This document shows, one piece after another, positions 6,721 to 47,163 of a stretch of DNA of 55,212 bases. Each line of letters begins with the position of its first letter. Position 1 is the first letter of the stretch. The translations under genes were made by a program, and so were the position numbers. Source of the stretch: a virus. The DNA lies in the IMG/VR virus record IMGVR_UViG_3300046557_000287, positions 1-55,212 of that record; one strand, given 5' to 3'. Under the pieces are notes generated by a model that worked only from the letters and a program-made list of their open reading frames with translations, made no database searches and was not told where the DNA came from.

Positions 6721-6740
6721 TCCGCTAGTCGACTAGCGGA
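6721..6740. repeat. 20-bp SalI palindrome, copy 1
   Basis: Perfect TCCGCTAGTCGACTAGCGGA. The TAG stop of the gene at 6733-6912 lies inside it, and an operator-promoter starts 16 bp downstream. Confidence 0.85.
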
Positions 6741-6912
6741 GCTCCTCCGCGATCAGCGCGACCAACGCCCCCGCCGGCAGCGTCAGCACGTAGCCGCCAC
6801 GGACCCTCGTTCGCCCGTACCCGCACGTCACGGCCTGGCGGAGGAGGTGGCGGTATCGGACGTCGTCGACGAGCCCGGAGGCGCCGCACTCCAGCGTCAC
6901 GCGGTAACGCAT
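6733..6912 (-). CDS. Small hypothetical protein, 59 residues
   Basis: Begins MRYRVTLECGASGLVDDVRYRHLLRQAV and ends ALVALIAEELR. GGAGG lies 5 nt before ATG 6912. The stop codon is supplied by the SalI palindrome. The start lies inside the preceding gene. Function unknown. Confidence 0.65.
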   Translation of the reverse strand: MRYRVTLECGASGLVDDVRYRHLLRQAVTCGYGRTRVRGGYVLTLPAGALVALIAEELR

Positions 6913-7121
6913 GGGATCCTCCGCACACGTCGGCTGACGACGATGTGGGCGTCTGCGGGGAAGTAGACCGCTCCCCCGGCAACGGGCACGAGCGCGCTCC
7001 TCCACGGGCCAATGCCCGCCGCTCCGGTCGCCGTCCGCAACTTGCCGTGACGCTCGAAGACGTCGCCGGCGCGGATGTCACGGGCCCCCACGGTGACATC
7101 CTGTGTGATCTCTGCGGGCAT
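6897..7121 (-). CDS. Small hypothetical protein, 74 residues
   Basis: Begins MPAEITQDVTVGARDIRAGDVFERHGKLR, a KOW/SH3-like small beta pattern (DIRAGDVF). GGAGGAG precedes the start. It overlaps the following gene by 16 bp. Confidence 0.65.
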   Translation of the reverse strand: MPAEITQDVTVGARDIRAGDVFERHGKLRTATGAAGIGPWRSALVPVAGGAVYFPADAHIVVSRRVRRIPCVTA

Positions 7122-7147
7122 CGCTCCTCCTCCGTCGACGACTTGCG

Positions 7148-7759
7148 CTACTTGATCAACCGCAGGAGGGAGAACCCTGTCCCGCTTCCTTCACAGGTCT
7201 GAAGGACGAGGTCCGCGGAACCGAAGCCAGGCAGTGCGCCGCCCTGACGGTTGACTCGCAGGTGTCCGTACACGCGGTAAGTCCCCGCCAGCGGGCCGGA
7301 GATGACATAGACCGTGCGCCCGACGGGGACCCTGGACAGCCACTGATAGCCCATGAAGTTGTGCCCGGCCAGGATCCGGCCGGCGTACATGGTGAGCGCG
7401 CCAGCGTCGATGCAGCGCTGCGCGTGACCCGTGCAGTCTTCGTAGAAGGAGATCCGGATGTCCGCGGGTGGCGTGGCGATCAACTGGTGCTTCGTCGGCC
7501 TCGTCGACGGAGTGGCCAGCTTCTCCACGTTCAGCGTAGGCCGCGCGCCTCCGCGGGTCGTACTCGTCGACGTCCGCGGCTGCGGAGTCGGGCGGTACGG
7601 CTGCACGGGACCGACGAACGACACGAACGGCATGGGGCGAACTGCGTCCGCCTCAGGACTGTGCGCCGGCTGCGCCAGGACGACCGATAAGGCGGAGACC
7701 GTGACAACGGCTGCGGCGGATGCTGCAGCGCGCAGAAGGAAGCGGGAAGGTCTGGGCAT
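7148..7759 (-). CDS. Secreted sortase-like protein
   Basis: 203 residues with an Arg-containing N-terminus and hydrophobic segment AAAVVTVSALSVVLA, read as a signal peptide or anchor. A Pro/Thr-rich linker spans about residues 30-95. The C-terminal domain carries a sortase-type triad: His133 in AGHN, Cys189 in LVLQTCEG (compare TLxTC) and Arg200 in SLLRL, with PVGRTVYVISG and YRVYGHL strands between. Sortases are surface transpeptidases. A phage copy in the early region may change the host envelope or act on surface proteins. No sorting-signal substrate is seen in the window. Spacing between Cys and Arg fits the family. Confidence 0.65.
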   Translation of the reverse strand: MPRPSRFLLRAAASAAAVVTVSALSVVLAQPAHSPEADAVRPMPFVSFVGPVQPYRPTPQPRTSTSTTRGGARPTLNVEKLATPSTRPTKHQLIATPPADIRISFYEDCTGHAQRCIDAGALTMYAGRILAGHNFMGYQWLSRVPVGRTVYVISGPLAGTYRVYGHLRVNRQGGALPGFGSADLVLQTCEGSGTGFSLLRLIK

Positions 7760-7840
7760 GACTTCTCCAGTGAGTGAGTGCGGGGAGCACCCCGGGCGGC
7801 CTATGACAGCCGTACCGCTGAACGGTCCCGGGGCGAGTTG

Positions 7841-7990
7841 CTACGCGTCGCGGTCGATCAACTGAAACAGCTGTCGAGTGACGATCTCCAGGCGCCCGAA
7901 GTAGTACGCAGAGCGCACCTCGTCCGCGTCCATGCCGTTGACAATCTCCATGTACGCCTTGCGGAGTCGCTCCACCTCGTGGGTATCCAC
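7841..7990 (-). CDS. Small hypothetical protein, 49 residues
   Basis: Starts at GTG 7990 (MDTHEVERLRKAYMEIVNGMDADEVRSAYYFGR) with GGAGGAG upstream. Wholly helical in appearance and acidic. The open frame extends upstream through the tRNA-like element, which argues against a longer protein. Confidence 0.6.
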   Translation of the reverse strand: MDTHEVERLRKAYMEIVNGMDADEVRSAYYFGRLEIVTRQLFQLIDRDA

Positions 7991-8021
7991 TTCCTTCTCC
8001 TCCTGCGACTTGATCTTTGCG

Positions 8022-8095
8022 TGCCCCGCCGCGGATTCGAACCGCGCGCCCGCCGGCTCCTGGGGGGACCGGGTGAGGGCTTTCCTATGCGGGGC
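8022..8095 (-). tRNA. tRNA-like element, probably degenerate
   Basis: On the minus strand a perfect 7-bp acceptor stem (GCCCCGC / GCGGGGC) and a perfect 5-bp T stem with loop TTCGAAT sit in exact tRNA register, 74 nt including the discriminator A. The middle part does not fold into a standard anticodon arm: the best hairpin has a bulge and a 5-nt loop, and the D arm lacks its GG. No CCA is encoded. It is best read as a decayed tRNA gene or a tRNA mimic. Confidence 0.4.
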
Positions 8096-8102
8096 GGGTG
8101 GG

Positions 8103-8276
8103 TCAGGGGGTCCGCCGAAGCGCAATCAGGAACGCTGCCAGCCACAGAGCAACCGGCGCACCAAACGTGATTGCCGCATCCGTGTTGCTCTCGACGCCCA
8201 CGGTCAACCCCAGAGCCGCGAACGGGACGAACCACGTCGCCGCAAGGCCCAGAAGCGTCTTCTCGGTCCTGTCCAT
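8103..8276 (-). CDS. Small two-helix membrane protein, 57 residues
   Basis: Begins MDRTEKTLLGLAATWFVPFAALGLTVGV and ends LWLAAFLIALRRTP. Two hydrophobic helices are joined by a short polar loop, with positive charges at the end. GGAGGAG lies just before ATG 8276. Could be holin-like or an envelope modifier; no family is assigned. Confidence 0.65.
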   Translation of the reverse strand: MDRTEKTLLGLAATWFVPFAALGLTVGVESNTDAAITFGAPVALWLAAFLIALRRTP

Positions 8277-8290
8277 GTCTCCTCCTACGG

Positions 8291-8349
8291 CCTGCCTCAT
8301 CAGCGCGGGTAGGCCAGCCCCCGCGGACGCCCGAAGGCGTTTTGGCTAG
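8291..8349. repeat. Intergenic repeat with hairpin, copy A
   Basis: About 58 bp matching 9668-9726 at most positions. Shared parts are CTGCCTC.TCAG, GGTAG.CCA, and a short hairpin (ACGCC with GGCGT here, 8327-8340) followed by GGCTA. Each copy covers the 3' end of an operator-controlled gene. It probably acts as a terminator. Confidence 0.55.
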
Positions 8350-8747
8350 TTGGCGGCAAAAAGGCTCTGGATGCTGATCATCTGAGTTGTGGTGCTGACC
8401 CGAAGAACTGCGGCTCTCGTCTGGTCCAGGTGTGCCGCACAGGAGGCGAGACCCACGCCCTTCCCCGACGTCACGGTGTGGGTGGCGCGGGTGCCCTCGT
8501 CGCCAACGGCACAGGCAATGCACGGCATGTTGAAGAACGATGGAACGGGCTCCGTGCGCGTGGCAGCTGCGGCGCGGACGGCGTCCATGTCGACGCCCCA
8601 TTCTGCGGGGTTGGTCGGGAGAGTCCCGGTCCGGCACTGCTCGCCGATCCGGTCCTCACGCGCCTCCCACTGACTCCGCGTCATCAAGGGCCCGACGGCC
8701 CAACGGGCGTAGGTCTGGTAGTTGAACTCCCGCTGCATGTCGTTCAT
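8346..8747 (-). CDS. Hypothetical protein of an operator-controlled unit, 133 residues
   Basis: ATG 8747 (MNDMQREFNYQTYARW) follows GGGGGAGG. The middle holds FNMPCIACAVGDEGTRATHTV and a later C..H, a possible metal site. No family recognised. Single-gene unit: operator at 8806 upstream, repeat with hairpin downstream. Its flanks match those of the 9724 gene, suggesting a copied cassette. Confidence 0.65.
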   Translation of the reverse strand: MNDMQREFNYQTYARWAVGPLMTRSQWEAREDRIGEQCRTGTLPTNPAEWGVDMDAVRAAAATRTEPVPSFFNMPCIACAVGDEGTRATHTVTSGKGVGLASCAAHLDQTRAAVLRVSTTTQMISIQSLFAAN

Positions 8748-8793
8748 GGTGACCTCCCCCGCCGGACCCTCCGTGAGTCCTTGGCGTGACTTG

Positions 8794-8823
8794 ATAGTCG
8801 CATGGTTGTGTCGGCCGACACAA
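8794..8823 (-). promoter_or_regulatory. Operator palindrome and promoter
   Basis: Perfect TTGTGTCGGCCGACACAA at 8806-8823. Its left half on the minus strand gives a -35 of TTGTGT; the likely -10 is GACTAT at an 18-bp spacing. It directs the 8346 gene. Confidence 0.6.
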
Positions 8824-8839
8824 GAGGTGGCGGCAGAGT

Positions 8840-8859
8840 TCCGCAAGTCGACTTGCGGA
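8840..8859. repeat. SalI palindrome, stop-free version, copy 2
   Basis: TCCGCAAGTCGACTTGCGGA, perfect palindrome without TAG. It lies 6 bp past the stop of the gene ending at 8866 and 16 bp upstream of the operator, the same spacing as copy 1. Confidence 0.85.
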
Positions 8860-8865
8860 GGTCGG

Positions 8866-9648
8866 CTACGCGGCGTCGACGAGCGCCAGGGTGGAGACTG
8901 CAGCTTCCGCCTCTCTGAGGTCGCCCTCCGCCCACGCGTTGCGCTTCGACGCTGCGACGAACTCCCGCAGCTTCACGAACTTGACGACTGCGGCCGTCTC
9001 CTCGTCGGCGATGATCTCCTCTTGAGAGCGCGTGAAGTCGAAGCGTGCAAGCTCAGTGAGCGCCACCTCCCGCGCGCGCTTCCGCGACTTGAAAACGGGG
9101 CCAAGGTGAGTGTCCGGCTTCTCATCGGTCACCGACGGCAGGTGCCGGAGAATCCAGCCTCTCCCATAGCGGGCCGGCGACAGCCCCGGGATTACCTCGT
9201 CCACGTGCTCCGCTGCGCCCATGGACTCCGCAGCCTCCGCAGTGGCGTACTCCCCCGGAGCGACCTCCACGAAGTAGTCAGGGACTGCAGTCGCGTACGT
9301 CACCTTCGGCCAGCCCCTGCGCGCGTCTACGTAGGCGGATGTGGCGCCGTGGAACTTCAGCGGCTTGCGCTGCATGTGGCGCGTCCGCGCCTGAACGAGG
9401 GCGTTGTCTCGCGACCGCTGACCGGAGCCAGGAAGGCCCTCGGCGTCCGCCCACTTCTTGCGGCGCAGCGTCGCCAGCTCGTCGGCGTTACGCCGCTCCG
9501 CCTCCGTGCGGTCCATGTCGACGAGCGCGGCCTTCACGGCCTTCGTGTGCGCCGCCTCCAGCTGCTTCACGGAGCCGACTCGCTCTGTGCGAATGGTGCG
9601 CTCCACGCCGTGGACGCGGATCATGGTTTCCCGGAAGTCGTTGTTCAC
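8866..9648 (-). CDS. Hypothetical protein, 260 residues
   Basis: Starts at GTG 9648 (MNNDFRETMIRVHGVERTIRTERV) with GGGGAGGGG upstream. Charged and helical over residues 25-95, with a strand-rich centre (YATAVPDYFVEVAPGEYATAEAAESM). A gated segment HLGPVFKSRKRAREVALTEL is followed by an Ala/Glu-rich end. No known domain. Single gene between two operator units. Confidence 0.65.
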   Translation of the reverse strand: MNNDFRETMIRVHGVERTIRTERVGSVKQLEAAHTKAVKAALVDMDRTEAERRNADELATLRRKKWADAEGLPGSGQRSRDNALVQARTRHMQRKPLKFHGATSAYVDARRGWPKVTYATAVPDYFVEVAPGEYATAEAAESMGAAEHVDEVIPGLSPARYGRGWILRHLPSVTDEKPDTHLGPVFKSRKRAREVALTELARFDFTRSQEEIIADEETAAVVKFVKLREFVAASKRNAWAEGDLREAEAAVSTLALVDAA

Positions 9649-9667
9649 GGTGCCCCTCCCCTGCGGT

Positions 9668-9726
9668 CTGCCTCGTCAGGCCCGGTAGACCAATCCCGGA
9701 CGACGCCCCGGAGGGCGTTTCGGCTA
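9668..9726. repeat. Intergenic repeat with hairpin, copy B
   Basis: Counterpart of 8291-8349. It contains a hairpin ACGCC / GGCGT with a variant loop and covers the end of the gene at 9724. Confidence 0.55.
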
Positions 9727-10002
9727 TGCCGCAACGCGCTCCAGCTCCGTACCCCCACCGACGAATCCACGGCCTAGCTGAGTACGGACAAGGTGCTCCG
9801 CCGCAACGCGAGTGGAGTAACGTCCCGGGCCCAGCGTCACCGTGACGCCGATGGACTCCAACGGGCCGAACGCTCCGTCGCACCGATTCGGCGAGCCGAC
9901 AACGGTCATTTCGTAGGTGCGGCCGTCGCGAGTAACTCGCACTTTTTCGCCGTTCTTCAGCGACTGAATGAGGCTTATCGCCTGCGTCATTTCCGGGCTC
10001 AT
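9724..10002 (-). CDS. Hypothetical protein of an operator-controlled unit, 92 residues
   Basis: ATG 10002 (MSPEMTQAISLIQSLKNGEKVRVTRDGRTYEMTVVGS) follows GGGGAGG. The first third is helical, then an SH3-like small barrel (GEKVRVTRDGRTYEMTVV) is likely. Controlled by the variant operator at 10061. The promoter and 3' repeat match the 8346 cassette although the proteins differ. Confidence 0.65.
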   Translation of the reverse strand: MSPEMTQAISLIQSLKNGEKVRVTRDGRTYEMTVVGSPNRCDGAFGPLESIGVTVTLGPGRYSTRVAAEHLVRTQLGRGFVGGGTELERVAA

Positions 10003-10049
10003 CTCGTCCTCCCCTGCCAGACTCTCCGTGAGTCCCTGGCGTGACTCCA

Positions 10050-10078
10050 CAATGACACAGTTATGTCGGACGACACAA
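10050..10078 (-). promoter_or_regulatory. Variant operator and promoter
   Basis: TTATGTCGGACGACACAA at 10061-10078 differs from the perfect palindrome at two positions. Minus-strand -35 TTGTGT is followed after 17 bp by TCATTG, a weak -10. The leader after it (CCTGGCGTGACTC) repeats the leader of the 8346 unit. Confidence 0.55.
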
Positions 10079-10088
10079 CCCCTGAAGC

Positions 10089-10108
10089 TCCGCTAGTCGA
10101 CTAGCGGA
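10089..10108. repeat. 20-bp SalI palindrome, copy 3
   Basis: Perfect TCCGCTAGTCGACTAGCGGA, 10 bp upstream of the operator and 21 bp after the stop of the gene ending at 10130. Confidence 0.85.
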
Positions 10109-10129
10109 GCCTCAGGGAAAGTTGGGTGC

Positions 10130-10432
10130 CTACTCGCCAGCCAGGAACGCCGCCATGGCGACGACGTCCGCGCCCGTGTGGTCGGTGCCGGCCAGAAGGG
10201 CGCGGGCGCGTGTCACGAGCGCTTCGCGGTCTGCCGTTGAGGCAGGGGTGACGAGGCGCACCTCAGCCGCCCACACTCGCTCGTCGTCCGTGTCATCGAG
10301 CCTCACACGGAAGGGGATTCCGTCGTCAAGGTCGTCGACGTCGGTAACGACGCCAATCCTCCCGTTGAACTCTCCGTCGTACGAGCGGTACACCACGATC
10401 TCTACGCGGTCGCCCACGTTGACCTCACTCAT
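10130..10432 (-). CDS. Small SH3/KOW-like protein, 100 residues
   Basis: MSEVNVGDRVEIVVYRSYDGEFNGRIGVVTDVDDLDDGIPFRVRLDD forms a KOW/SH3-like barrel with an acidic loop. The C-terminal helix TADREALVTRARALLAGTDHTGADVVAMAAFLAGE resembles the end of the upstream protein. ATGA overlap with that gene, preceded by GGGAG. Confidence 0.7.
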   Translation of the reverse strand: MSEVNVGDRVEIVVYRSYDGEFNGRIGVVTDVDDLDDGIPFRVRLDDTDDERVWAAEVRLVTPASTADREALVTRARALLAGTDHTGADVVAMAAFLAGE

Positions 10433-10992: not shown

Positions 10993-11017
10993 GTTCTCTC
11001 CTCTTGTGGTGGGTATC

Positions 11018-11037
11018 TCCGCTAGTCGACTAGCGGA
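11018..11037. repeat. 20-bp SalI palindrome, copy 4
   Basis: Perfect TCCGCTAGTCGACTAGCGGA, 2 bp after the stop of the 47-residue gene and 26 bp before the start of the next. Confidence 0.85.
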
Positions 11038-11039
11038 GG

Positions 11040-11183: not shown

Positions 11184-11215
11184 GGTGGGCTCTTTTCAGT
11201 AGGTCTGCGAACGCC

Positions 11216-11980
11216 TCATGCAGCCAGGTCGTGTGATGTGGCCACGGTCCGGGCGGACTTGAGTCCATTGCTGCGCAGCTTGCGGAGCGCCGCCAGCTTC
11301 ACCCCCATGTCCGCCGCCACCTCGTTGTCCGGGGTCGGCGTCATGGCGATTCCGTAGAACGCACGCAGCGCGTACGACTGACGTGGCGGAATCTGGCGCA
11401 GAAGGTAGCGGGCCAGGTCGATTTGCTCCGTCGGGCGGGTGAAGTCCGCCGTCGTGTCGGGGAGGATCTCAGCGAGCGTGGTCGTGGCACCTTCGCCATG
11501 CGAGATGGCCGCCTCCAGCGACTCCGTGTCGGCCAGGGCCTCCACGGTCGCGATGAACAGTTCACGGCTCATACGGCGCCGCGGGTCCTCGTCAGACCCG
11601 ACAATCATCCATGCGCCCTCCAAGTCGCCCTGCGTGTCCCAGAGCGCGCGGCGTACACGGAGCGCGGCCGACGACTCCACCGTCAGCGCCGTCGACGTGC
11701 ACACCCACTGAGCCGCAATAGCGCGCCGGATGGCCTGGTGTGCGTAGGTGGCGAGCGTGGCGGAGCTGGCGGCCGTGTTGTAGTCGCGGATGTGCTCCAG
11801 CAGCACCGCGCGTGCCTCCTGGAGGAGGTCCTCCGCCTGCTCCTCGTTGGCACTGGGGGCGACGGAGCGGACTGCGTGGCGGATGACGCCCTCGTACGCA
11901 CAGACGATGTCCCACATGGCGTCAGAGTCGCCCGACTGTGCGGCGTGGATCATCTCGTCCGTGACCTGCGTGCGGCTCAT
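11216..11980 (-). CDS. Phage sigma-70-family factor
   Basis: 254 residues. Residues about 25-95 look like sigma region 2 (MWDIVCAYEGVIRHAVRSVAP ... AEDLLQEARAVLLEHIRDYN ... TYAHQAIRRAI). Residues about 195-245 look like region 4 (YLLRQIPPRQSYALRAFYGIAMTPTPDNEVAADMGVKLAALRKLRSNGLKSAR). The gene has its own early-type promoter, so it may be early and drive later genes. GAGGAG precedes ATG 11980. The middle linker is longer than in minimal ECF factors. Confidence 0.75.
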   Translation of the reverse strand: MSRTQVTDEMIHAAQSGDSDAMWDIVCAYEGVIRHAVRSVAPSANEEQAEDLLQEARAVLLEHIRDYNTAASSATLATYAHQAIRRAIAAQWVCTSTALTVESSAALRVRRALWDTQGDLEGAWMIVGSDEDPRRRMSRELFIATVEALADTESLEAAISHGEGATTTLAEILPDTTADFTRPTEQIDLARYLLRQIPPRQSYALRAFYGIAMTPTPDNEVAADMGVKLAALRKLRSNGLKSARTVATSHDLAA

Positions 11981-12011
11981 GGCGTCTCCTCGTGTTCTTT
12001 GGTGTGACTTG

Positions 12012-12040: not shown

Positions 12041-12051
12041 GCGGGACTTTT

Positions 12052-12065: not shown

Positions 12066-12120
12066 TCCATGAGGCACACGCGTGGCAAGGGGGTGCCGTG
12101 GCAGGGGTGTTGGGAATGAC

Positions 12121-12158: not shown

Positions 12159-12178
12159 TCCGCTAGTCGACTAGCGGA
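12159..12178. repeat. 20-bp SalI palindrome, copy 5
   Basis: Perfect TCCGCTAGTCGACTAGCGGA, 2 bp after the stop at 12181, with the same GG spacer as copy 4. Confidence 0.85.
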
Positions 12179-15323: not shown

Positions 15324-17806
15324 GCTGTTGCCTCCTCTCGTGACTGCCCGAAGATGTCCTGCGGCCCGTCGGATGCCGGTTCCGCAGCTGGCTCGTCTTC
15401 CGCAAGTCGACTTGCGGTCTGCTGCTCGGCATCTGTCGCAAGGCGGATGCCGTCGAATCCCCAGCGACTGCGAAACTGGCGCTTCGTGAACCCACGGCTC
15501 TCCAGCTCGACGCCCAGCGCCCAGCCGGATAGCACTTCCTTCCGGGAGAGACCCGCGTCCTCCGCCCATTCCGCGTACGCGCGTCGGACAGCCATGGGCG
15601 CTACCCGCGCGTCAGGCTCCTGGACGAGCCGTGCGGCGATGAACTCCGCTAGCCGGTCTTCGGATTCGCGGTAGTCCTGCGTGGCCGTGGCGACCGACGC
15701 AGGTTCGCCCAGTCCGTCGGCGTACCACTCCTGTGCGCCGGCGACGGCCCACGCGAGAATGCCCTCTGCCTCGTCGCGAAGCTTGGCGGGGAGCGTCTTG
15801 TCCGCCTTCGCTCCGCGGAAAGTCGCCTCGAAGGGGACGAGCTTCACACGTCGCCAGACGCCAAGATCCTGCGACAGAATCGCGGGCTTGTAATTGCCTG
15901 CGACCATGAGGAGGAAGTTCGGCACGTAGGTGAACGGCGCCCCGTACAAGGCACGGCATGTCACCGGGTCGCCGCCTGTCAGTTGCTTGACGAGCGCTTC
16001 CGCCAGGCGGCTGTACTTCTCCGTCTCGCTCGCCGTCACCAACCGCGCGCCGCGAAGAGCGGCCAGTTCGGGCGACGCCTGCCCGACGTTCACGCGCTGC
16101 TCGAAGGTAGAGAATTCGGTGCTCTTCGTAACGCCCTTCAGGACGTAGAGGAGTGCGTCCAGAAGGACCGACTTCCCGTTTGCACCCTGGCCGTGCATGA
16201 AGACGAAGCACTGTTCGGCCGTGCTGCCACTGATCCCGTAGCCGACGAGCCGTCGCATGAATGCGGGCATCTCCGGGTGGTTGGGAAACACCTCACCCAG
16301 GAAGCGCGCCCATCGCGGCGCCATGGCGTCGGGGTTGTAGGCCACGTCCAGACGCTTAGTGATCATGTCGGCTGGCGTGTGGGCGTGGAGCTCCCCTGTG
16401 CGTAGGTTCACGGTCCCGTTCGCCACGCTCAGGAGCTCCGCGTCCGCATCGAAGTCGGCTGCAGCCGCTGGGACTCCAGGCACGGAGGGAAGTTCTTTGA
16501 TCACGGCCTCGATGCTGCGGTTGGTCAGCGCCTTCAGCGCCAGCCGCCGCATGTCATCGTCACCGGACGCGATCAGCTCCGCGCCCATGAGGTGAAGCGC
16601 CTCCCGCACCTTCGCGTCACCGGAGACCCAGATGGTGCCGTCCCACACGAGATAGCCCAGTCCGCGGGCGTAGCGCACTCCCCCGCCACCGCGGGCCATG
16701 AAGTCCCGCAGCATCACGGCAATACCGACGTCCGTTGCGTTGAAGATCCCCCGCGCGGTCGCGCTCATCTCCGCCAGTGCATCGCCAGCGCGAGTGTCCG
16801 TCGACGTCGACGAGCGTTCGGGAGCGGGCGCCGGAGCCTCCAGGACCACAACCTCCGCCACACGCACCGCACGGTGCAGCTCCGTGGCGAAGGTGTCCGG
16901 GGTCCGCTCCCGCCAGTCGGTCAGATCCTCTTTGACGTTCGGGAACTGGAGCCGACGCACGGTCTGGCCGTCAGCGATGAAGGCCGCCAGGAGTGCATTC
17001 GTCCCGCGGTCCCCCGCCGTATCCGGGTCGAAGGCCAGGACAACGTCACGACCACGAAGCCCGGCGACGATCTCCGCCACCATGGCGGCGTTGTTCGCCA
17101 GGCCAGCGCCCCGGATGATCAGAGCGTCGTAGCCGACACCGACCGATGTCAGGCCGTCGCCTGGTCCCTCCGTGATCAGAACCGTGTCGTATCCCGTGCC
17201 AGCGGTGAGGAGCCCGTACTTCGCCCACGTTTTGCCGCCAGCGTTGAAGAGCGACGTCCACCGCGCGGGGCACTTGCCGGAGAGGTCGCGACCCTGCATA
17301 CCGCGGACCACACCATCGAAGCCGACGAGCGGGACCGTAATGCGCGGGTAGCGGGTGAAGCCTCGCGTCAACCACGCCTGCGGCCGGTCGCCCAGAGCCG
17401 CGTAGCCGACCTCCAGGTCTGCCGCCATGTCGACGGACAGACCGAAGCGGTCGGCCAGGTAGTCGACGGCTTCCGTCGACGAGGACAGTGCGGCCGACGT
17501 CTCGTCGACGAACATCCGCAATCCCGCGATTTCTCCGGGACCGATCGTCTCGGGTGCCTGCGCACTGATCGTCTTCACGCCCTGGCCGTCGACGTCGAAG
17601 AGGTCGCTCGTCGTCAGGTCGAGCTTCGCCAGGATCTCCGCACGGTCGCAGCCAGAACGGCAGACCATGAGGAGCTTCCCGTCCTCCTTCAGCGTCAGCT
17701 TCAGCGACGGGTGTTCGCGGTCCGCGTGCGCTGGGCACAGCGCTAGGTATCCGTCGTGGTCCTCCTCCACCCCGTTCAGGCGCCCAAGAAATTCAGTCAG
17801 TCGCAC
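15320..17806 (-). CDS. Bifunctional primase and D5-like SF3 helicase
   Basis: 828 residues. N-terminal zinc motif CPAHADREHPSL ... CRSGCDR, then a TOPRIM-like core (TVLITEGPGDGLTSVGVGYDALIIRGAGLA ... VVLAFDPDTAGDRG). A D5_N region leads to an SF3 helicase with Walker A GQGANGKSVLLDALL and LVTASETEK. It unwinds and primes the fork. GTG start with GGGGAG upstream. Near the C-terminus, a SalI palindrome encodes TASRLAED without breaking the frame, in a low-complexity Ala/Glu/Pro tail. Confidence 0.93.
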   Translation of the reverse strand: MRLTEFLGRLNGVEEDHDGYLALCPAHADREHPSLKLTLKEDGKLLMVCRSGCDRAEILAKLDLTTSDLFDVDGQGVKTISAQAPETIGPGEIAGLRMFVDETSAALSSSTEAVDYLADRFGLSVDMAADLEVGYAALGDRPQAWLTRGFTRYPRITVPLVGFDGVVRGMQGRDLSGKCPARWTSLFNAGGKTWAKYGLLTAGTGYDTVLITEGPGDGLTSVGVGYDALIIRGAGLANNAAMVAEIVAGLRGRDVVLAFDPDTAGDRGTNALLAAFIADGQTVRRLQFPNVKEDLTDWRERTPDTFATELHRAVRVAEVVVLEAPAPAPERSSTSTDTRAGDALAEMSATARGIFNATDVGIAVMLRDFMARGGGGVRYARGLGYLVWDGTIWVSGDAKVREALHLMGAELIASGDDDMRRLALKALTNRSIEAVIKELPSVPGVPAAAADFDADAELLSVANGTVNLRTGELHAHTPADMITKRLDVAYNPDAMAPRWARFLGEVFPNHPEMPAFMRRLVGYGISGSTAEQCFVFMHGQGANGKSVLLDALLYVLKGVTKSTEFSTFEQRVNVGQASPELAALRGARLVTASETEKYSRLAEALVKQLTGGDPVTCRALYGAPFTYVPNFLLMVAGNYKPAILSQDLGVWRRVKLVPFEATFRGAKADKTLPAKLRDEAEGILAWAVAGAQEWYADGLGEPASVATATQDYRESEDRLAEFIAARLVQEPDARVAPMAVRRAYAEWAEDAGLSRKEVLSGWALGVELESRGFTKRQFRSRWGFDGIRLATDAEQQTASRLAEDEPAAEPASDGPQDIFGQSREEATA
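15399..15418. repeat. SalI palindrome inside the primase gene, stop-free, copy 6
   Basis: TCCGCAAGTCGACTTGCGGT, one end base off the palindrome. Read on the minus strand it encodes ASRLA in the disordered C-terminal tail. Confidence 0.8.
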
Positions 17807-23474: not shown

Positions 23475-23494
23475 TCCGCTAGTCGACTTGCGGA
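23475..23494. repeat. SalI palindrome, hybrid, copy 7
   Basis: TCCGCTAGTCGACTTGCGGA: one arm carries TAG, the other the stop-free variant. It encodes the last codons and TAG of the 23479 gene, 13 bp upstream of the promoter -35. Confidence 0.85.
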
Positions 23495-27071: not shown

Positions 27072-27091
27072 TCCGCTAGTCGACTAGCGGT
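27072..27091. repeat. SalI palindrome, copy 8
   Basis: TCCGCTAGTCGACTAGCGGT, last base off. It lies 2 bp past the stop of the 25-residue gene. Confidence 0.8.
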
Positions 27092-29926: not shown

Positions 29927-30661
29927 TCAGCTCTTCGCGCGGCTCAACCTGCGTAGCTTGCTGATGCGTTGCTGCATCGCAGCTAGCTCCTCGTCGAGCT
30001 TGGCCCGCTGGCCTGGCGCCATGTGGGACTTGATGACGTCCTCGTCCAGCTGATCAAGGATGCTGCTAGCGGCGTGGGCTAGGCGAAGGTGGTCAGCCGT
30101 TGCCTTGACTGGGTGGCCGGCGTTGGCTGGCTCCTCGTCGGACGTCTTCTTGCCCTTACCAGACTTCTTTGGTGTTGACGCCTCTGCAGTCTCCGCAGCC
30201 TTCAGGCCAGCGATCAAGGCCGCGTTCTTGGCGCGGCTGTCCTGCATCCGCTCCAGCGCTGACGTTGGCTTGAGGTTGATTGCTTCAAGCTCGCGCGCTG
30301 TCATGTGACGTCGCAAGAGGTTGTTCACGTGCCATCTGACGGCCGTCTGGACCTTGCTCGTGCTGTCAGGGCCGATGCCGGACTGGCGGTACATCCCGGC
30401 GATTTTTTGGCGGTACTCGTGGCCGCTACCACGCATGTCGTCTAGCTGAATGCGTATGGCGATGACAATCGCCGCAATGTTCTTGAGGAGGATCGTCGGA
30501 TGGTGCTCAATCCGCTCGTACTCCTTGGTGTAGGCCGCTCCACGGGCAAGGAGAGACGCCTCAGTCTCGCCCCGTAGGTCGTCTAGCTGGAGCTCCGGCA
30601 GTGCATCCAGGTCGACCGTGGACACGCCCCCGGTTGACCTCCGGGCAACGTCCTTAGCCAT
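29927..30661 (-). CDS. Hypothetical protein, 244 residues
   Basis: MAKDVARRSTGGVSTVDLDALPELQLDDLRGETEASLLARG, helical centre (IEHHPTILLKNIAAIVIAIRIQLDDMRG), a Lys-rich linker and a C-terminal coiled coil with basic end. Looks DNA-associated. GAGAGG precedes ATG. Its position between a cruciform and the metalloprotease-like gene makes a regulatory role possible, not shown. Confidence 0.65.
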   Translation of the reverse strand: MAKDVARRSTGGVSTVDLDALPELQLDDLRGETEASLLARGAAYTKEYERIEHHPTILLKNIAAIVIAIRIQLDDMRGSGHEYRQKIAGMYRQSGIGPDSTSKVQTAVRWHVNNLLRRHMTARELEAINLKPTSALERMQDSRAKNAALIAGLKAAETAEASTPKKSGKGKKTSDEEPANAGHPVKATADHLRLAHAASSILDQLDEDVIKSHMAPGQRAKLDEELAAMQQRISKLRRLSRAKS

Positions 30662-30722
30662 GGAATGACCTCTCAAGACACGGATTGAGCCGACGTGGGC
30701 AGGCTATCGCAAAGCACTTTCT

Positions 30723-30771: not shown

Positions 30772-31395
30772 TCATTCGAAGTCCTGACCACACACAGCGC
30801 ACGTGATGGCTCCCAGTGCTGCGACTGTCTGACTGACTCTGATCGTCCTGGGCTTCGGCTTGCAGCTGCATTGGAGTGCCAGCCTGTCGGGGCGCTTCGA
30901 CCGTGGCGCGTCTGGGACGACGAGGTGAGGGAGAACCTGCGGGATAGCCGTCTTCAGCGCTGCCAGGTCGTCGGCGTATCGATGTCGTGCGGCGTCGGTC
31001 AGTTGCGGCGAAACGTATCCGCGGCCTTGCACGCGTTCTGTGTTGTCTGGCCAGATAAGCCCTACCTCCTCCGCAGCTGTCAGGTAGGAGGCGTTGTGAT
31101 ACGCACCGCGCATGGTCGTGTCTTTGATGCCCCGTGTCCAACAGAGGACGTGTGCAGCCTCGTGGAGGACTCGCTCCAAGACGGCTTCTTCACCCTCCTG
31201 GAGGGTGTCCACACCAACCACTAGACCAGTAACTAGGCCGTCGGCTTCATATGCCCAACGTTCTGGGCCATGGTTCGTCGACGGCGGGGTAGGCGCTAGG
31301 GCAATACGCGCAGGTGGGAGGTCTGGAATGTGGTCGCGGAGATGCGTCCAAAGTGCATCGAGCGACTCCAGTAGGGGGCCTGGTGAGGTCGGCAT
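30772..31395 (-). CDS. HEAAH metalloprotease-like protein with C-terminal zinc ribbon
   Basis: 207 residues. ERVLHEAAHVLCWTRGIKDTTMRGAYHNASYLTAAEEVGL has the zincin HExxH and a downstream Glu. CSCKPKPRTIRVSQTVAALGAITCAVCGQDF is a C-terminal zinc ribbon. Such proteins are frequent on actinomycete plasmids and integrative elements, some called SprT-like. No ribosome site at ATG 31395, possibly leaderless. Confidence 0.7.
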   Translation of the reverse strand: MPTSPGPLLESLDALWTHLRDHIPDLPPARIALAPTPPSTNHGPERWAYEADGLVTGLVVGVDTLQEGEEAVLERVLHEAAHVLCWTRGIKDTTMRGAYHNASYLTAAEEVGLIWPDNTERVQGRGYVSPQLTDAARHRYADDLAALKTAIPQVLPHLVVPDAPRSKRPDRLALQCSCKPKPRTIRVSQTVAALGAITCAVCGQDFE

Positions 31396-31435: not shown

Positions 31436-31455
31436 ACCGCTAGTCGACTAGCGGA
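31436..31455. repeat. SalI palindrome, copy 9
   Basis: ACCGCTAGTCGACTAGCGGA, first base off. It lies 40 bp upstream of the metalloprotease-like gene and 17 bp past a terminator, so it again marks a unit boundary. Confidence 0.8.
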
Positions 31456-42300: not shown

Positions 42301-44020
42301 TGAACGCCGACGTGAGCCCGCGGGGGCCGGCGATGGAGTCGAAGAGTGCGCGCTGCTCCGGCGTCATCTTCGCGAGCATCTTCCGGTACTCGTCCGACTT
42401 GGTGACAGCCTTCGTCGTCGCGTCGACGCCGGAAAGCCGTGCCGACTCCACGCCCCGCTCAGCAGATGCGATGGACTCTGCAGCAGAGACCTGCGTATTC
42501 GCGGCGTTCTGGACTGCGTCGCTGAGTGCGCGCTGAGCGTCGACGACCGTCTGTGCTGCGTCGACCTGCGCGCGGGCGGATGCCTGCTGTACGTCGGCGA
42601 GCGCCTTGACGTTGTCGATGACGTCGCGCTGTGCGTCGACCACACGCTGAGTCGCAGCCTTGACAGCGTCGTTACCTGCGACGCCCGCCTTCCGCTGCTT
42701 CGCTGCCTCCTTCTGGAGGTCGGCGTAAGACTGCTTCTGCTCTTTCGCGGCCTGGACAGCTTGGTCGTACGTCAGCTGTGCGGCTTCGCGCTGAAGGTCG
42801 GTGGCCATCGGGTCGGCCAGAACCGCGTTCAGGTCTTCTTGTGCTTGCTGGACGCGAAGCGTCGCAGCGCGCTGATCGAGCGCGCCGTCAGTGAGCTTGT
42901 CGTTCAGCGCCTTCAGTTGCGCTACAGCGTCAGCGCGCGCCTGCGTGAGGTCGAGCTCAGCCTGACGTGCGGTGCGCTGTGCGTCGGAGAGCGAACGCTC
43001 CGCGCGCTCCACCGAGTCAGCTGCCTGCCGGCGCTGGTCCGCGGCCCGCTGGACCGCCTGCGCGACCCCTCGTTCGGCCGTCTCCACCTGGCGGTTCGCC
43101 TGTGCGATGGACTGCGCGGCCTGACGGTGGGCGGAGGCCAAGGTGGACTGAGCGCCCGCTAGCTGTAGCGCGTGCTGCGCCGCCTGCGTGTTGCTCTTCG
43201 CGCTCGTGTCCGTCGCCTGCGCGGACTCCTTCTCTGCAGCCTTCTTCGCCTGCAGCGCTTCCGTAACGCCCTTGATGGCGGGAATCGCGACGAGGGCAAG
43301 ACCGCCCAGACCGGCACCTGCAGCCGTCGCCATGGCAGCGACGCCACCCAGACCAGCGGCCAGCGCGGGACCCAGCGGGATAGCCGTCAGGATGGCGGCC
43401 TGAATGCTGAGCGCCAGCAGCGCGCCCGTTGCCTGCGCCGTGTCGGCGTGGACACGGATCCGTGGCTCACGTGCGTCGACTGCGGCAATTTCCGCCTGCA
43501 GTTCCGCCAGTGCTGCGCGAGCCGTCGCCGTGTCTGCGCGGACGGCTACGTTCGGGTGGTTGGCACCCAGCCGCTTCAGCTCCGCTTCGATCCGCTTCAC
43601 TTCCGCGGCTGCAGCTGCCACGTCGACGTCCACGCCGATGCGCTTGTTGCTGAGCGTCTCCATGCGCGCCCGCAGCCGTGCCAGCTCCGCGTCAACTCCG
43701 GTATCACTCAGCCGGATATCGAGCTTCGGCATGGCCTTGAACGCCGCTTCGAGCCGCCGGCGCAGGGATCCGGCGAAGGCTCCACCTACGTCGGATCCCT
43801 GGCGCGTGGCAGCACGCTGAGCAGCGGTACCGCCCTGCGTGACAGCGCTGGGGATGGAGATGACGATGTTGCGCGAAATCTCGTTGCCCATGCGCTCGCC
43901 AGCTTCACGGCCGACGCGGTCCGCAGCCGGAAGTACAGCCGCCTTCAGTCGACTGTGAAAGTTGGTCACGAGGGGAACGACGTCTACGGCAGCACTGCCG
44001 ACGATGTCCAGATCTGCCAT
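39335..44020 (-). CDS. Tape measure protein with M23 peptidase and lytic transglycosylase domains
   Basis: 1561 residues. Long Ala/Gln coiled coils (residues about 90-560), hydrophobic stretches around 800-900, and Trp-rich repeats (WLWEKxIxPxFxWIGDKA) near 930-1010. M23-like: HHTGLDFPAAVGTAI ... INHGGGLSSLYAHM ... GPHLHLEARV. Transglycosylase-like: GPLKTLWNGESGWNYRARNPSSGAYGIPQALP. Sets tail length and opens the wall. ATG 44020 preferred over GTG 44023. Confidence 0.92.
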   Translation of the reverse strand: MADLDIVGSAAVDVVPLVTNFHSRLKAAVLPAADRVGREAGERMGNEISRNIVISIPSAVTQGGTAAQRAATRQGSDVGGAFAGSLRRRLEAAFKAMPKLDIRLSDTGVDAELARLRARMETLSNKRIGVDVDVAAAAAEVKRIEAELKRLGANHPNVAVRADTATARAALAELQAEIAAVDAREPRIRVHADTAQATGALLALSIQAAILTAIPLGPALAAGLGGVAAMATAAGAGLGGLALVAIPAIKGVTEALQAKKAAEKESAQATDTSAKSNTQAAQHALQLAGAQSTLASAHRQAAQSIAQANRQVETAERGVAQAVQRAADQRRQAADSVERAERSLSDAQRTARQAELDLTQARADAVAQLKALNDKLTDGALDQRAATLRVQQAQEDLNAVLADPMATDLQREAAQLTYDQAVQAAKEQKQSYADLQKEAAKQRKAGVAGNDAVKAATQRVVDAQRDVIDNVKALADVQQASARAQVDAAQTVVDAQRALSDAVQNAANTQVSAAESIASAERGVESARLSGVDATTKAVTKSDEYRKMLAKMTPEQRALFDSIAGPRGLTSAFKEWSRSLHPEVLPLFTRGVDSAKASLPGFTPLVLGAAAGVKTLYDKASAQMKTPFWQGFKADLKESVQPAVVGFGVAFGNVIKGVAGIIDAFLPHMDGIAKKSDDITARFARWGTSLKGSPDFEKFLKYVKDTSPGLAEFLGDILTAALDVAQALSPLSSAMFAVVGPLFQAISWLSTNAPGFVQVLWGLFFAQKAIAVGMAAFAVAMGLYEIVIAAATLVTSGWAVALQATGIVPLIEAIILIIVLLVAAVIYAYTHWDWFRAIVDGAIHAIAAVALWLWNVILKPTFDAIWWAIKKIADIAVWLWQNVIGPAFSFIGEAAKLLFTALVTLFLLPAYLAFQALGAIGKWLWEKVISPTFGWIGDKATWLWEKAIKPTFQWIGDKATWLYNKAIKPAMAESKKALQLLGEMAKWLWEKAISPVFGWIADKADWLYQKGVKPPMDKVRALMGPVVAAFKTARDGIKKHWDQVADIAKKPVAFVISHVYNEGIVPLWNHVASITGVGKLKPMDLKGFHEGGIMSGYSPGRDDRVIAVGGGEAVMRPEWTRAIGADRINSWNAAARSGGVGGVQRAIAGGMSAFQDGGIVGWFKDRGNDVGNFISGAADYANPSKVFDKATGFIKNQLEPLMTNPWSKSVAKIPGEMLSALKDKALNVFGFGGGGSGGGNGQWAKPVNVPYGTKFGVAGSMWSSGHHTGLDFPAAVGTAIKAVADGRVSQATSGGPYGIHAMINHGGGLSSLYAHMSQLLTSVGKSVHQGDVIGRVGATGNVTGPHLHLEARVNGRAVDPMAYLAGGGAGYGAQASGAAQNYAKGQLSRHGWGASQFGPLKTLWNGESGWNYRARNPSSGAYGIPQALPASKMASAGSDWLTNYATQIRWGLGYIDSRYGSPASALSQWQARSPHWYDEGGYLPEGLSLVANGTGRPEPVFTGSQWDTLRASAGRSSGPAELHADVRVFVGDREITEIVDTQIELHESGTAAAINTGRWNS

Positions 44021-44472
44021 CACGCCTCCTGCGTCTGATTTCTCAGCCGCGGGTCAAGTGCGCGGCGCTGCTCGTCCGTCAGGCCCAATCGGGCTGCGGA
44101 CTTGGGGGGAATCCCGGGGCGTGGAGTCGGTGTGAATTCCGGCGGCTTAGCGCCAGTTGCCGCAATGGCCACACTGCGGCTAAGCGTTATTTCGTCCTTG
44201 ATGCTTGCAAGAAGCATTTCGACGCCGCTCCATGCGGCTTTGTCCGGGCGGTACTCAGCTCCGGGCGTTGACGGGGCGCGTTCCTCCGCCTCGTTGCGCA
44301 GCGCGGTTTTCGTCGCGCTCTCTGGCTGCAGATGCTGAATCAGGATCCGCAGCCGGCGAAGTGAAAGGCGCCCGCGGTAGACGTCCAGGAGGTCGATACC
44401 GCGGAACGCCAAGTCAGCTTCTAGCGCCTCCGCGCACGAGTCGAGGACTTGGAGCGTCCACCAGACTTTCCC
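44020..44472 (-). CDS. Tail assembly chaperone, frameshift extension (GT)
   Basis: The extension is read after a -1 slip at GGGAAAG (44466-44472): KVWWTLQVLDSCAEALEADLAFRGIDLLDVYRGRLSLRR ... It is made only as a fusion to the 44421-44741 product. An internal TTG exists but no ribosome site supports it. The fusion works as chaperone for the tape measure. It ends 4 nt into the tape measure start. Confidence 0.85.
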   Translation of the reverse strand, partial: GKVWWTLQVLDSCAEALEADLAFRGIDLLDVYRGRLSLRRLRILIQHLQPESATKTALRNEAEERAPSTPGAEYRPDKAAWSGVEMLLASIKDEITLSRSVAIAATGAKPPEFTPTPRPGIPPKSAARLGLTDEQRRALDPRLRNQTQEA

Positions 44473-44741
44473 GGGGTCTCTCCCGTGGACTCCATGGCCG
44501 CAGTGGTGAACGCGTTGATCTCGTCGAAGGTGGGGTCAAGGTCGAGGAACACCTGAACGTCGTCCTCGTGGAGGACACCAGCCGCCCACGCGTCGTAGTC
44601 GCCAGCGCGAAGCGCGCGCAGGTACGACGGGCGCCAGTGGTTGGCAGGCTTGATACGGAGGTCGACGCCGTCCAGCGGGACGGTCGCGAACTCCTCGGTG
44701 GCCTCGTTCTCCTGGGCCTCAGCTGGGGTGATCTCAGTCAT
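44421..44741 (-). CDS. Tail assembly chaperone (G)
   Basis: 106 residues. MTEITPAEAQENEATEEFATVPLDGVDLRIKPANHWRPSYLRALRAGDYDAWAAGVL. Ends in a basic tail past the slippery site. AGGAG precedes ATG. Confidence 0.85.
   Translation of the reverse strand: MTEITPAEAQENEATEEFATVPLDGVDLRIKPANHWRPSYLRALRAGDYDAWAAGVLHEDDVQVFLDLDPTFDEINAFTTAAMESTGETPGKSGGRSKSSTRARRR
44466..44472 (-). other. Programmed -1 frameshift site
   Basis: Heptamer G GGA AAG on the minus strand in correct phase. The slip joins the two chaperone frames, about 45 nt before the zero-frame stop. Confidence 0.85.
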
Positions 44742-44795
44742 GCGCGCGGGTCTCCTAAGTCAGGGAATGGCTGCGCGGGTCGAAGTGCGATGGAA

Positions 44796-44832
44796 AGCGG
44801 AGCCCCGGACCCGCGCGGTACAGGGCTCCGCT
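44796..44832 (-). terminator. Hairpin after the major tail gene
   Basis: Stem AGCGGAGCCC / GGGCTCCGCT, 10 bp; no U-run. May dampen read-through so that the tail tube protein is made in excess. Confidence 0.6.
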
Positions 44833-44838
44833 TGTCAC

Positions 44839-45429
44839 TCACGGCGTGGGGAAGAAGGAACTGACGTCCACGTCGCCGTAGTCAATGGAGCGCTTCACTG
44901 CAGGGGCGTTCAGTGCACCCTTGTAGAACTTGAAGGTCATCTGAACGGCCATGACGTCGCTCGTCTGCGGCTGCTCGTCGCCCCTCTCCGTGACCTTGCC
45001 GTTCGGCATGTAGAGGCGGTTTCGCTTGTCGCCGTCAGCGGTGTCGAAGACGAACGCGTAACGCAGGTCCGACGGCTTGTCGGGCAGGGCGTACGTGACG
45101 GTGCCTGCGGTTGGCGACAGGGAGGCAATGGGGACGTTGTCGTACAGGGCGCGGACAAGAGGGTTCAGCCCCTCCAGGAAGGTGACCTGAAGGCTCTTCA
45201 CGCTCTTCGTCATGAGGGTTCGGATTGGCTCCAGAGAGCCAGCCGCCTCAACGTCCTTCGACTCCTCTTCGATCTTGAAGAGGCCGCCCTCCGTGGTGAC
45301 CCAGCCCAAATTCACCCACGGGGTCGCCGGGTCGGAAAAAGCCGTCGGGGAAGTCGTGTTGATGGGCGCCGCGTAGACGAGATAGTCAGTCGCGCCGAAA
45401 GTGAGATCGGCATTGCGGGTATCCGCCAT
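44839..45429 (-). CDS. Major tail protein
   Basis: 196 residues. MADTRNADLTFGATDYLVYAAPINTTSPTAFSDPATPWVNLGWVTTEGG, strand-rich tail-tube fold, with SLQVTFLEGLNPLVRALY and MAVQMTFKFYKG. GGAGGC precedes ATG 45429. Flanked by hairpins, as expected for a highly expressed gene. Confidence 0.85.
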   Translation of the reverse strand: MADTRNADLTFGATDYLVYAAPINTTSPTAFSDPATPWVNLGWVTTEGGLFKIEEESKDVEAAGSLEPIRTLMTKSVKSLQVTFLEGLNPLVRALYDNVPIASLSPTAGTVTYALPDKPSDLRYAFVFDTADGDKRNRLYMPNGKVTERGDEQPQTSDVMAVQMTFKFYKGALNAPAVKRSIDYGDVDVSSFFPTP

Positions 45430-45453
45430 GATGCCTCCAGGGCATACGAGAGG

Positions 45454-45477
45454 CCCGAATGCCGGAAGCAATTCGGG
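45454..45477 (-). terminator. Small hairpin before the major tail gene
   Basis: Stem CCCGAAT / ATTCGGG, 7 bp with 10-nt loop; may attenuate or be an RNA-processing site. Confidence 0.45.
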
Positions 45478-45492
45478 TAAAGGGTTTGGGGG

Positions 45493-45861
45493 TTACGCGG
45501 CCCGAAGGCTCACGGTGTAGGCGGCGCCACGTCGGTGGATCGCCTCGTTCGCCCACGGCTGGCGCGACGGCCCGGAGTCGCATCGGACATCGCGGATCAC
45601 AGCAGCGCCCACAGGTCCGCGGAGAAACAGCAGTGCATCACGGACATGGCCAGCAAGCGTGCGTGCCTCGTCGGCCGTGGCAGCGAAGACGTCGACGGCG
45701 ATACGGGGACGCATCGAGAACCGCTCGTCCGCTCCCCCGACGCGCTCCACGCGGATCACGGGGAGGACGTCCTCCAGGTCGGCCGGAGTCTCTGCGCAGC
45801 CAAAGGCGCCGAAAGTGGCTTCGGCCCACGGGGCTAGAACGCTCTCGATGTCAGCCGCCAC
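45493..45861 (-). CDS. Tail terminator protein
   Basis: 122 residues from GTG 45861. DLEDVLPVIRVERVGGADERFSMRPRIAVDVFAATADEARTLAGHVRDAL matches small tail-terminator proteins. Overlaps the upstream gene by 11 bp. Confidence 0.72.
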   Translation of the reverse strand: MAADIESVLAPWAEATFGAFGCAETPADLEDVLPVIRVERVGGADERFSMRPRIAVDVFAATADEARTLAGHVRDALLFLRGPVGAAVIRDVRCDSGPSRQPWANEAIHRRGAAYTVSLRAA

Positions 45862-46213
45862 TATGCGCCGCCTTCACGGCGTCGATGGCTTTCTGAAGAG
45901 GCGCGTAGCGCGGGACTCGTCCGTCTCCGTGCTCCACACGCCAGGCGTGTCCTGCGGTGTTGATCAGCCGCGCGCTCGCACGCTGGCGGGGCTTCCCGTG
46001 AAACGGAACGTTTTTGTAGATCGCCCGGACTTCGAAGCCGGCCCGGTAGAGACCCGGGTGCTTGTCCTCCTCCGGGTCGCCCGTCGGAGACACAGCCTGT
46101 GCGGCGGACATGAGCTTTTCCGCAGCAGCGACACACGGCGCCTGGAGCCAGGGCCTCGTCAGCATCTTGCCGATACCGGAGTATCGGCCCGTGTACTTCG
46201 AGCGGTACGCCAT
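45851..46213 (-). CDS. HK97 gp10-like tail-component protein
   Basis: 120 residues. MAYRSKYTGRYSGIGKML ... HAWRVEHGDGRVPRYAPLQKAID. Position between head closure and tail terminator supports the call. AGGAGGT precedes ATG. Confidence 0.65.
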   Translation of the reverse strand: MAYRSKYTGRYSGIGKMLTRPWLQAPCVAAAEKLMSAAQAVSPTGDPEEDKHPGLYRAGFEVRAIYKNVPFHGKPRQRASARLINTAGHAWRVEHGDGRVPRYAPLQKAIDAVKAAHSGG

Positions 46214-46566
46214 CAGCCAGTCACCTCCTGGAGTGCGGCCTCCATGTGGGCCAGGGACGTCAGCGGGAAGTCGAGCGGGCGCCCGATCACCTCGTAGGTC
46301 TCGGAGCCGCGGAGGATCTGGTCCGACGCGCGCACGTCCGTCCCCAGCGGGGCGAAGAGCACGCGGCGAGTGGTCACCGTCGTCGAGGCGTCGTGCAGCT
46401 CCGACGAGCTCCCTACGGTCACGCCGTAGGGGCTCATCACTGCACAGCCGCTGACGGTGATCAGCACGGGCGGACCAGGGATCCTCGTGCCCGTGGAGTC
46501 GCGCGTGGGAGTGCCGGGACGCTTGATGGTGATCGTCTCCGCCATGAGCGACGCTATGAGGCTCAT
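46213..46566 (-). CDS. Head closure protein
   Basis: 117 residues. MAETITIKRPGTPTRDSTGTRIPGPP ... VLFAPLGTDVRASDQILRGSETYEVIGRPLDFPLTSLAHMEAAL is typical of head-tail stopper proteins. ATGA and TGATG overlaps on both sides. Confidence 0.72.
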   Translation of the reverse strand: MSLIASLMAETITIKRPGTPTRDSTGTRIPGPPVLITVSGCAVMSPYGVTVGSSSELHDASTTVTTRRVLFAPLGTDVRASDQILRGSETYEVIGRPLDFPLTSLAHMEAALQEVTG

Positions 46567-46940
46567 GGGCCACCCCAGTACGTAACAGGCGGCGCCACGT
46601 CCTCCGGCGCGATGTTCAGAGACCCAGCGCCCGACGCCATGCCGACCGCTCGTCGCAGCCGGCGCCGCTCGTCGTCGGAGAGGGCTACGCCCGTCTGCGC
46701 GTCGGCGTATGAGGTGAGCATCCCGCCTGCCTGCTCACTGCGGACGCCGGCAGGGTTGGTGAAGGTTCTTGCGGCAACCGCCAGGGCGACGGCCTTGACG
46801 CCAGGCTGCGGGGGGTCAGTGATCCGGCCCCCGACCTCCCCCGCCAGGGCGTCGGCTGTCATCTCCAGCGCCAGCGCGCATTGGGCGTCCGTCAGCCGCG
46901 GAACGAAGGCGCGGAGCTCAGACGCCGTGAACAGTGCCAT
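46563..46940 (-). CDS. Head-tail adaptor
   Basis: 125 residues from ATG 46940. ALFTASELRAFVPRLTDAQCALALEMTADALAGEVGGR ... EQAGGMLTSYADAQTGVALSDDERRRLRRAVG, the helical gp6-like adaptor pattern. Overlaps the upstream gene by 23 bp. Confidence 0.72.
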   Translation of the reverse strand: MALFTASELRAFVPRLTDAQCALALEMTADALAGEVGGRITDPPQPGVKAVALAVAARTFTNPAGVRSEQAGGMLTSYADAQTGVALSDDERRRLRRAVGMASGAGSLNIAPEDVAPPVTYWGGP

Positions 46941-47163
46941 CCGTTCCGCCCGCCTTACGTCGAGGAGCCGCACGCTTCGCGGGCGCCTTCTTTGGCGGCG
47001 TAGGCACTGGTTCCGCAAGTCGACTTGCGGACGGCGCCTCTGCCCACGCCTTCGGGTTGGTAATGAGCGCCTGCGCCCACTCCGGGACCTCGTCCGCGGG
47101 GCTGAACACGTGGGCCACGCCGTCGGCGTCCGTCACGTGGACGTGTGTCTTCAGGGTTGCCAT
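46918..47163 (-). CDS. Small head-region protein with Lys/Arg/Pro tail
   Basis: 81 residues. MATLKTHVHVTDADGVAHVFSPADEVPEWAQALITNPKAW, then a tail that contains PSASRLAEP written by a SalI palindrome, then PPKKAPAKRAAPRRKAGG. Small proteins of this kind follow the capsid gene in many actinophages. GAGGC precedes the start. Confidence 0.7.
   Translation of the reverse strand: MATLKTHVHVTDADGVAHVFSPADEVPEWAQALITNPKAWAEAPSASRLAEPVPTPPKKAPAKRAAPRRKAGGTDGTVHGV
47012..47031. repeat. SalI palindrome inside a head gene, stop-free, copy 10
   Basis: TCCGCAAGTCGACTTGCGGA, perfect. It encodes SASRLA in the flexible tail and is the only copy in the late region. Confidence 0.85.

Follow-up and report, generated by a model that had tools for sequence, protein, structure and literature searches.

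The ten near-identical palindromes dispersed over the 55,212-nucleotide viral stretch IMGVR_UViG_3300046557_000287 (hereafter called the window) are, with a probability that we put at about 80%, operators for the immunity repressor of the phage itself, in a system built like that of the Streptomyces phage phiC31; the reading, including the binding of the repressor to these sites, was deduced from sequence comparisons. Dispersed operators are known from phiC31 and the operator sequence found here is new. An earlier note on this DNA stated that the palindrome had no described counterpart, which was wrong, as both the dispersed repressor sites of phiC31 and the stoperators of cluster A mycobacteriophages are counterparts.

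The palindromes share the word CCGCTAGTCGACTAGCGG, and the 20-mer was matched with 0-3 mismatches at all ten positions reported previously. In dinucleotide shuffles, a check that the earlier note had proposed, 0.01 copies were expected against the ten observed and no shuffle ever contained more than one. When the search was relaxed to the 16-bp dyad CGYNARWCGWYTNRCG, the same ten places were the only ones in the window to match, even with one mismatch allowed. The probability that the palindromes are real, non-random and functional is high. The ten candidate operators and their surroundings are as follows.

6721-6740, perfect palindrome of 20 bp, with a minus-strand TTGTGT promoter 16 bp downstream of the copy
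8840-8859, variant CAAGTCGACTTG, with a TTGTGT promoter 16 bp downstream of the copy
10089-10108, with a TTGTGT promoter 10 bp downstream of the copy
11018-11037, in the gap between the orthologues of Samy gp69 and gp70, past the stop codon and ahead of the following ribosome-binding site; slot kept in relatives
12159-12178, between the orthologue of Samy gp67 and the gene for a sigma factor, with a strong hairpin after it; slot kept in relatives
15399-15418, in the DNA primase gene, within its 3' end; slot kept in several relatives
23475-23494, upstream of the recombination directionality factor (RDF) gene
27072-27091, after a TGA, ahead of a hairpin and a Samy gp38-like gene
31436-31455, 43 bp upstream of the metalloprotease-repressor operon
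47012-47031, within the gene for the head-tail connector, an orthologue of Samy gp12; slot kept in relatives

Seven of the ten copies are located at most 21 bp from a gene end, in agreement with what had been noted before: the stop codon of an upstream minus-strand open reading frame (ORF) lies inside the palindrome or 3-21 bp away at 6721, 8840, 10089, 11018, 12159 and 23475, and the copy at 27072 begins 2 bp past its TGA. Four copies had been placed 10-16 bp upstream of a -35 box, which was correct for those at 6721, 8840 and 10089, all beside clear TTGTGT-N17-CATAGT-like promoters, and incorrect for the fourth at 31436, which is 3 bp from TTGTGG. Given that the copies at 15399 and 47012 are located in coding sequence, the statement that bases of each copy are not needed by any gene is only partly true. 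There is good support for the proposal that a phage protein binds the copies at the boundaries of transcription units, and a role in activation, anti-termination or insulation is less likely than that of a repressor operator.

Judged from its proteins, the window belongs to a temperate phage of Streptomyces with Samy and phiC31 as relatives. The matches to Samy extend over almost the entire length, those to phiC31 are in the integrase, RDF, primase, polymerase, exonuclease and deoxynucleoside monophosphate (dNMP) kinase, and the presence of a large serine integrase indicates a temperate phage. In phiC31, 15 perfect copies of TACTCACGTGAGTA were found, nine of which begin 8-27 bp past a stop codon and one of which is upstream of the repressor gene c. 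In 1994 Ingham and colleagues reportedly described these sites as conserved inverted repeats (CIRs). Repressor binding sites are dispersed in multiple copies (18-30) over the phiC31 and L5 genomes, and the phiC31 repressor gene lies downstream of the structural genes (PMC4557955). The phiC31 word is also used by phiBT1, and TG1 and RemusLoopin have dispersed dyad variants of their own.

The window resembles the CIR system in that 10-16 near-identical dyads are dispersed in the genome of a temperate Streptomyces phage, mostly just past stop codons and near promoters, and in that the repressor gene, with a site upstream of it, lies between the genes for dNMP kinase and exonuclease. It differs in the word itself, CCGCTAGTCGACTAGCGG as opposed to CTACTCACGTGAGTAG in phiC31; the latter was not in the list of palindromes of the window and phiC31 contains no match to CGYNARWCGWYTNRCG. 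The repressors differ as well, that of phiC31 having 683 aa and that of the window about 245 aa with no hit in Pfam or PHROGs and no match to the models of the c family (PF25746 and phrog_19947). By architecture the system belongs with the phiC31-type dispersed operators, whereas membership by repressor homology was not established.

The Samy prophage of Streptomyces ambofaciens, with gp32 as putative immunity repressor, has the same gene order, a related repressor and 13 dispersed sites, several of which are at matching gene borders and similarly ahead of a TTGTGT promoter. Its sites are asymmetric hybrids (AAACG.ACT), unlike the symmetric sites of the window, and the searched passages of the Samy paper make no mention of the repeats. 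All 13 Samy sites (OR263580, 8367-52414) are such hybrids and their orientation flips between the nine on the left and the four in the right arm, these four preceding TTGTGT promoters; the same trend was seen in G011 and G013 (G numbers denote individual genomes in our comparison). In cluster A mycobacteriophages such as L5 and Bxb1 many dispersed repressor sites are present, most of them away from promoters, and the site sequence differs between immunity groups (PMC6550527). Several sites of the window are likewise intergenic or intragenic with no evident promoter, and might block elongation there. The stoperators are, however, 13 bp long, asymmetric and oriented with transcription, in contrast to the 16-20 bp palindromes described here.

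To find relatives of the candidate repressor, a protein here called P0001, an alignment-based search was required, as a single-sequence protein search returned none from viruses; relatives were located in 20 viral contigs and seven Streptomyces genomes. Including the window, 17 phages contained 6-14 copies of the 16-bp dyad CGYNARWCGWYTNRCG (exact or with one mismatch), and all 17 encode a relative of P0001. The core of the dyad is AGTCGACT in the window, G001, G002, G004, G006, G008, G009, G010 and G017, the asymmetric AAACGACT/AGTCGTTT in Samy, G005, G007, G011 and G013, and AAACGTTT in G012 and G014, with G015 mixed. The slots occupied by the dyads corresponded between the phages, namely within the gp12-like connector gene, ahead of the protease-repressor operon (for the window as for its relatives), before the RDF gene, before the primase gene and at its end, at the gp67/sigma gene and gp69/gp70 borders, and at the end of gp84. 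In each of the 16 relatives 3-8 of the ten window sites had a positional counterpart, defined as a site with an equal offset from the edge of an orthologous gene, compared with a null mean of 0.06-0.16 (P<=0.001 for each). The conservation in related phages that the earlier note had asked about was thus found for site positions.

That positions are kept while the sequence changes agrees with operators for a protein that shifted in specificity, and it contradicts the suggestion of a small mobile palindrome, similar to repetitive extragenic palindromic (REP) elements or miniature inverted-repeat transposable elements (MITEs). Near-identical copies dispersed within one genome are what such an element would produce, but positional counterparts are present in 16 relatives with different cores, the flanks are not alike between copies, and outside these prophages the motif hardly occurs in host chromosomes; we consider this explanation very improbable. 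Of 49 exact matches to the motif in the seven Streptomyces genomes (about 59 Mb in total), 46 were on the prophage contig, the one with the repressor gene, and the symmetric 16-mer CGCTAGTCGACTAGCG, searched as the host-DNA check suggested in the earlier note, was present in only 4 of 393 Streptomyces genomes.

The changed cores also bear on the idea that the palindromes act as RNA hairpins, i.e. as terminators or anti-terminator signals at gene ends, which would agree with the copies past stop codons and with the strong hairpins that adjoin three of them (12159, 27072 and 31436). These hairpins are, however, terminator-like structures separate from the dyads, several copies are upstream of promoters, and in Samy-type relatives the same slots carry CGTAAAACGACTCACG, the halves of which do not pair, so that the DNA dyad frame is kept and the hairpin is not. 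Given that the hybrid sites are unable to form a stem, a function as RNA hairpin is very improbable. We give equally little credence to parS-like sites for partition or DNA organisation. Sites of that kind too are dispersed palindromes of 16-20 bp, a description that the copies fit, but a phage with a serine integrase need not partition as a plasmid does, the copies keep set distances to promoters, to stop codons and to the operon of the repressor, and no ParB-like protein was found among the identified genes in a scan that did not cover every ORF.

The genes that bear on the identity of the binding protein are the following.

29927-30676, minus strand, gene for P0001, the putative immunity repressor, with the ATG start probably at 30661 (244 aa); 42-46% identical to its relative Samy gp32
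30772-31395, minus strand, SprT-like metalloprotease gene, first in the repressor operon; Samy gp31 orthologue
3553-4575, plus strand, XRE/DUF5753 regulator, Samy gp91 orthologue; rival candidate binder
511-2271, minus strand, large serine integrase, relative of phiC31 Int

The order dNMP kinase, repressor-like gene, exonuclease is that of phiC31, with P0001 in the position of c. From this synteny, the co-occurrence of dyads and P0001 relatives, the site upstream of its operon and an expression report for Samy, we infer that P0001 is the protein that binds the dyads. A structural model of P0001 (mean pLDDT, the predicted local distance difference test score, of 81) is all-helical, and the helices at residues 86-99 and 103-124 could possibly form a helix-turn-helix. 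All four repressors with a 4-residue deletion in the loop of this predicted helix-turn-helix go with AAACGTTT sites, and two of the four were not used for the definition of the operator motif; a one-residue insertion in that loop goes with the hybrid AAACGACT sites. The remaining repressors go with AGTCGACT sites, the exceptions being G005 and G007 (hybrid), G015 (mixed) and those members that are most distant. Since the loop groups are also clades, the correspondence between repressor loop and operator core is only suggestive.

Other results weigh against P0001 as the repressor that reads these operators. Whole-repressor distance was related to operator distance with a Spearman coefficient of 0.27, which ranked 21 among 54 phage proteins, and the best sliding window of the repressor ranked 8 of 51; as the repressor was not singled out when operators were compared with each of the phage proteins, covariation was not used as support. 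G002 and G004 have the operator core of the window with repressors that are 36-40% identical to P0001, whereas Samy, at 42-46%, has another core. Profile comparison of P0001 with phiC31 c gave probabilities of 30% and 2% and did not establish homology, and sequence and fold searches of the PDB with P0001 gave no meaningful match. Furthermore, no dyad set was found in G016 and G018, the most distant carriers of a P0001 relative. The best viral fold match of P0001 was a 94-aa protein of phiAAU2 (E 0.11). Dyad families of at least four copies were searched for and not found in G016, G018, Halsey, Barnstormer and MaGuCo. MaGuCo (19671-41005) has an element AAGATGGCCA ten times across its genome, which is perhaps a start-associated or operator element of its own.

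The palindromes could instead be operators of another phage regulator, for example the XRE/DUF5753 protein or some other conserved protein, in which case P0001 would have a different function. The XRE protein is clearly a regulator of the helix-turn-helix type, and its gene is on the opposite strand, as is classic for repressors; P0001 belongs to no recognised DNA-binding family and was not conspicuous in the test for covariation. A homologue of the XRE protein was, however, undetected in 7 of the 17 site-bearing genomes, as compared with P0001 relatives in 17 of 17, and it is P0001 that has the c position and a site upstream of its operon. We regard a different binder as improbable.

With P0001 as the immunity repressor, the product of 29927-30676 would in the lysogen be bound to each dyad, probably as a dimer with one subunit per half-site; binding in L5 is by a monomeric repressor (PMC4557955, PMC6550527). 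At the copies upstream of early promoters (6721, 8840 and 10089) and of its own operon (31436), initiation would be blocked or modulated, and autoregulation of the repressor operon through the copy at 31436 is likely. The copies at 11018, 12159, 27072, 15399 and 47012 are past stop codons, before terminator-like hairpins, or intragenic without a nearby promoter, and there the repressor might stop elongating RNA polymerase in the manner of stoperators. Given that the gp69/gp70 slot and the intragenic slots have no obvious promoter, a block to elongation, as described for the L5 stoperators (PMC6550527), is the simplest explanation of their placement, and the copies away from promoters probably act as such roadblocks.

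Palindromes of the same type were also observed in Streptomyces DNA outside prophages. In Streptomyces sp. NRRL F-5630 (G025, contig C40), a 320-bp intergenic stretch (positions 6640-6960 of locus L123) contains seven palindromes, among them the window-type operator CCGCTAGTCGACTAGCGG and the G012-type AGCGCAAAACGTTTAGCGCT, with the phiC31-like CTCACGTGAGTAG alongside. This stretch adjoins an array of clustered regularly interspaced short palindromic repeats (CRISPR) with a 61-bp period, and as a whole it was not conserved in the 392 other Streptomyces genomes. The cluster is possibly a decoy or sensor. Three of its unassigned palindromes were tested as dispersed operators in other viral contigs, and this gave no support, as each of the listed stretches contained a single copy. 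Single window-type operators, perfect palindromes of 26 and 24 bp, were found in the chromosomes of G325 (L132, 1496-1521) and G180 (L133, 1497-1520), the former about 350 bp from a GntR-like gene with several more palindromes close by, the latter about 300 bp downstream of a transporter-like gene. No phage structural genes were found in the wider surroundings of these two operators (L140 and L141).

A broader proposal, which we consider possible but rather doubtful, is that the immunity repressor has a fold absent from solved structures and is unrelated or very distantly related to phiC31 c, that repressor and about ten fixed slots change specificity together (AGTCGACT, AAACGACT and AAACGTTT cores, asymmetric hybrids included), and that some host chromosomes also carry operators outside prophages, perhaps as decoys or sensors. 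If this were true, new immunity groups could arise without any movement of the sites.

Two other repeated motifs were observed in the window. The first, a palindrome of type TTGTGTCGNNCGACAYAA, overlaps with the -35 region of early minus-strand promoters at 6687, 8806, 10061, 12864 and 12893, and had 10 matches, with both strands counted, against 0.65 expected. Three of its copies were delimited.

6687-6704, minus strand, second palindrome TTGTGTCGGCCGACACAA, overlapping the -35 region of the promoter
8806-8823, minus strand, promoter palindrome TTGTGTCGGCCGACACAA
10061-10078, minus strand, promoter palindrome TTGTGTCGTCCGACATAA

Variants of TTGTGTCGNNCGACAYAA are found at the same place in relatives, and the motif is possibly the operator of a second regulator, for example the XRE protein. 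The second motif, of type CCCCACATAA, is present five times (211, 12013, 23434, 29727 and 33186) against 0.007 expected, has the kin CCCCATAACTAA and CCAATAACTAG in other phages, and perhaps represents promoters for the phage-encoded sigma factor (11216-11980).

With the palindromes as repressor operators, an unexplained repeat would become a readable immunity code: likely repressor sites could be listed from sequence alone for about two dozen Streptomyces prophages and shared immunity could be predicted. The family would also provide a natural experiment on how one repressor and ten dispersed operators change specificity jointly, and on how a genome is silenced by repressors bound away from promoters, and phages of the Samy type would gain a testable switch.

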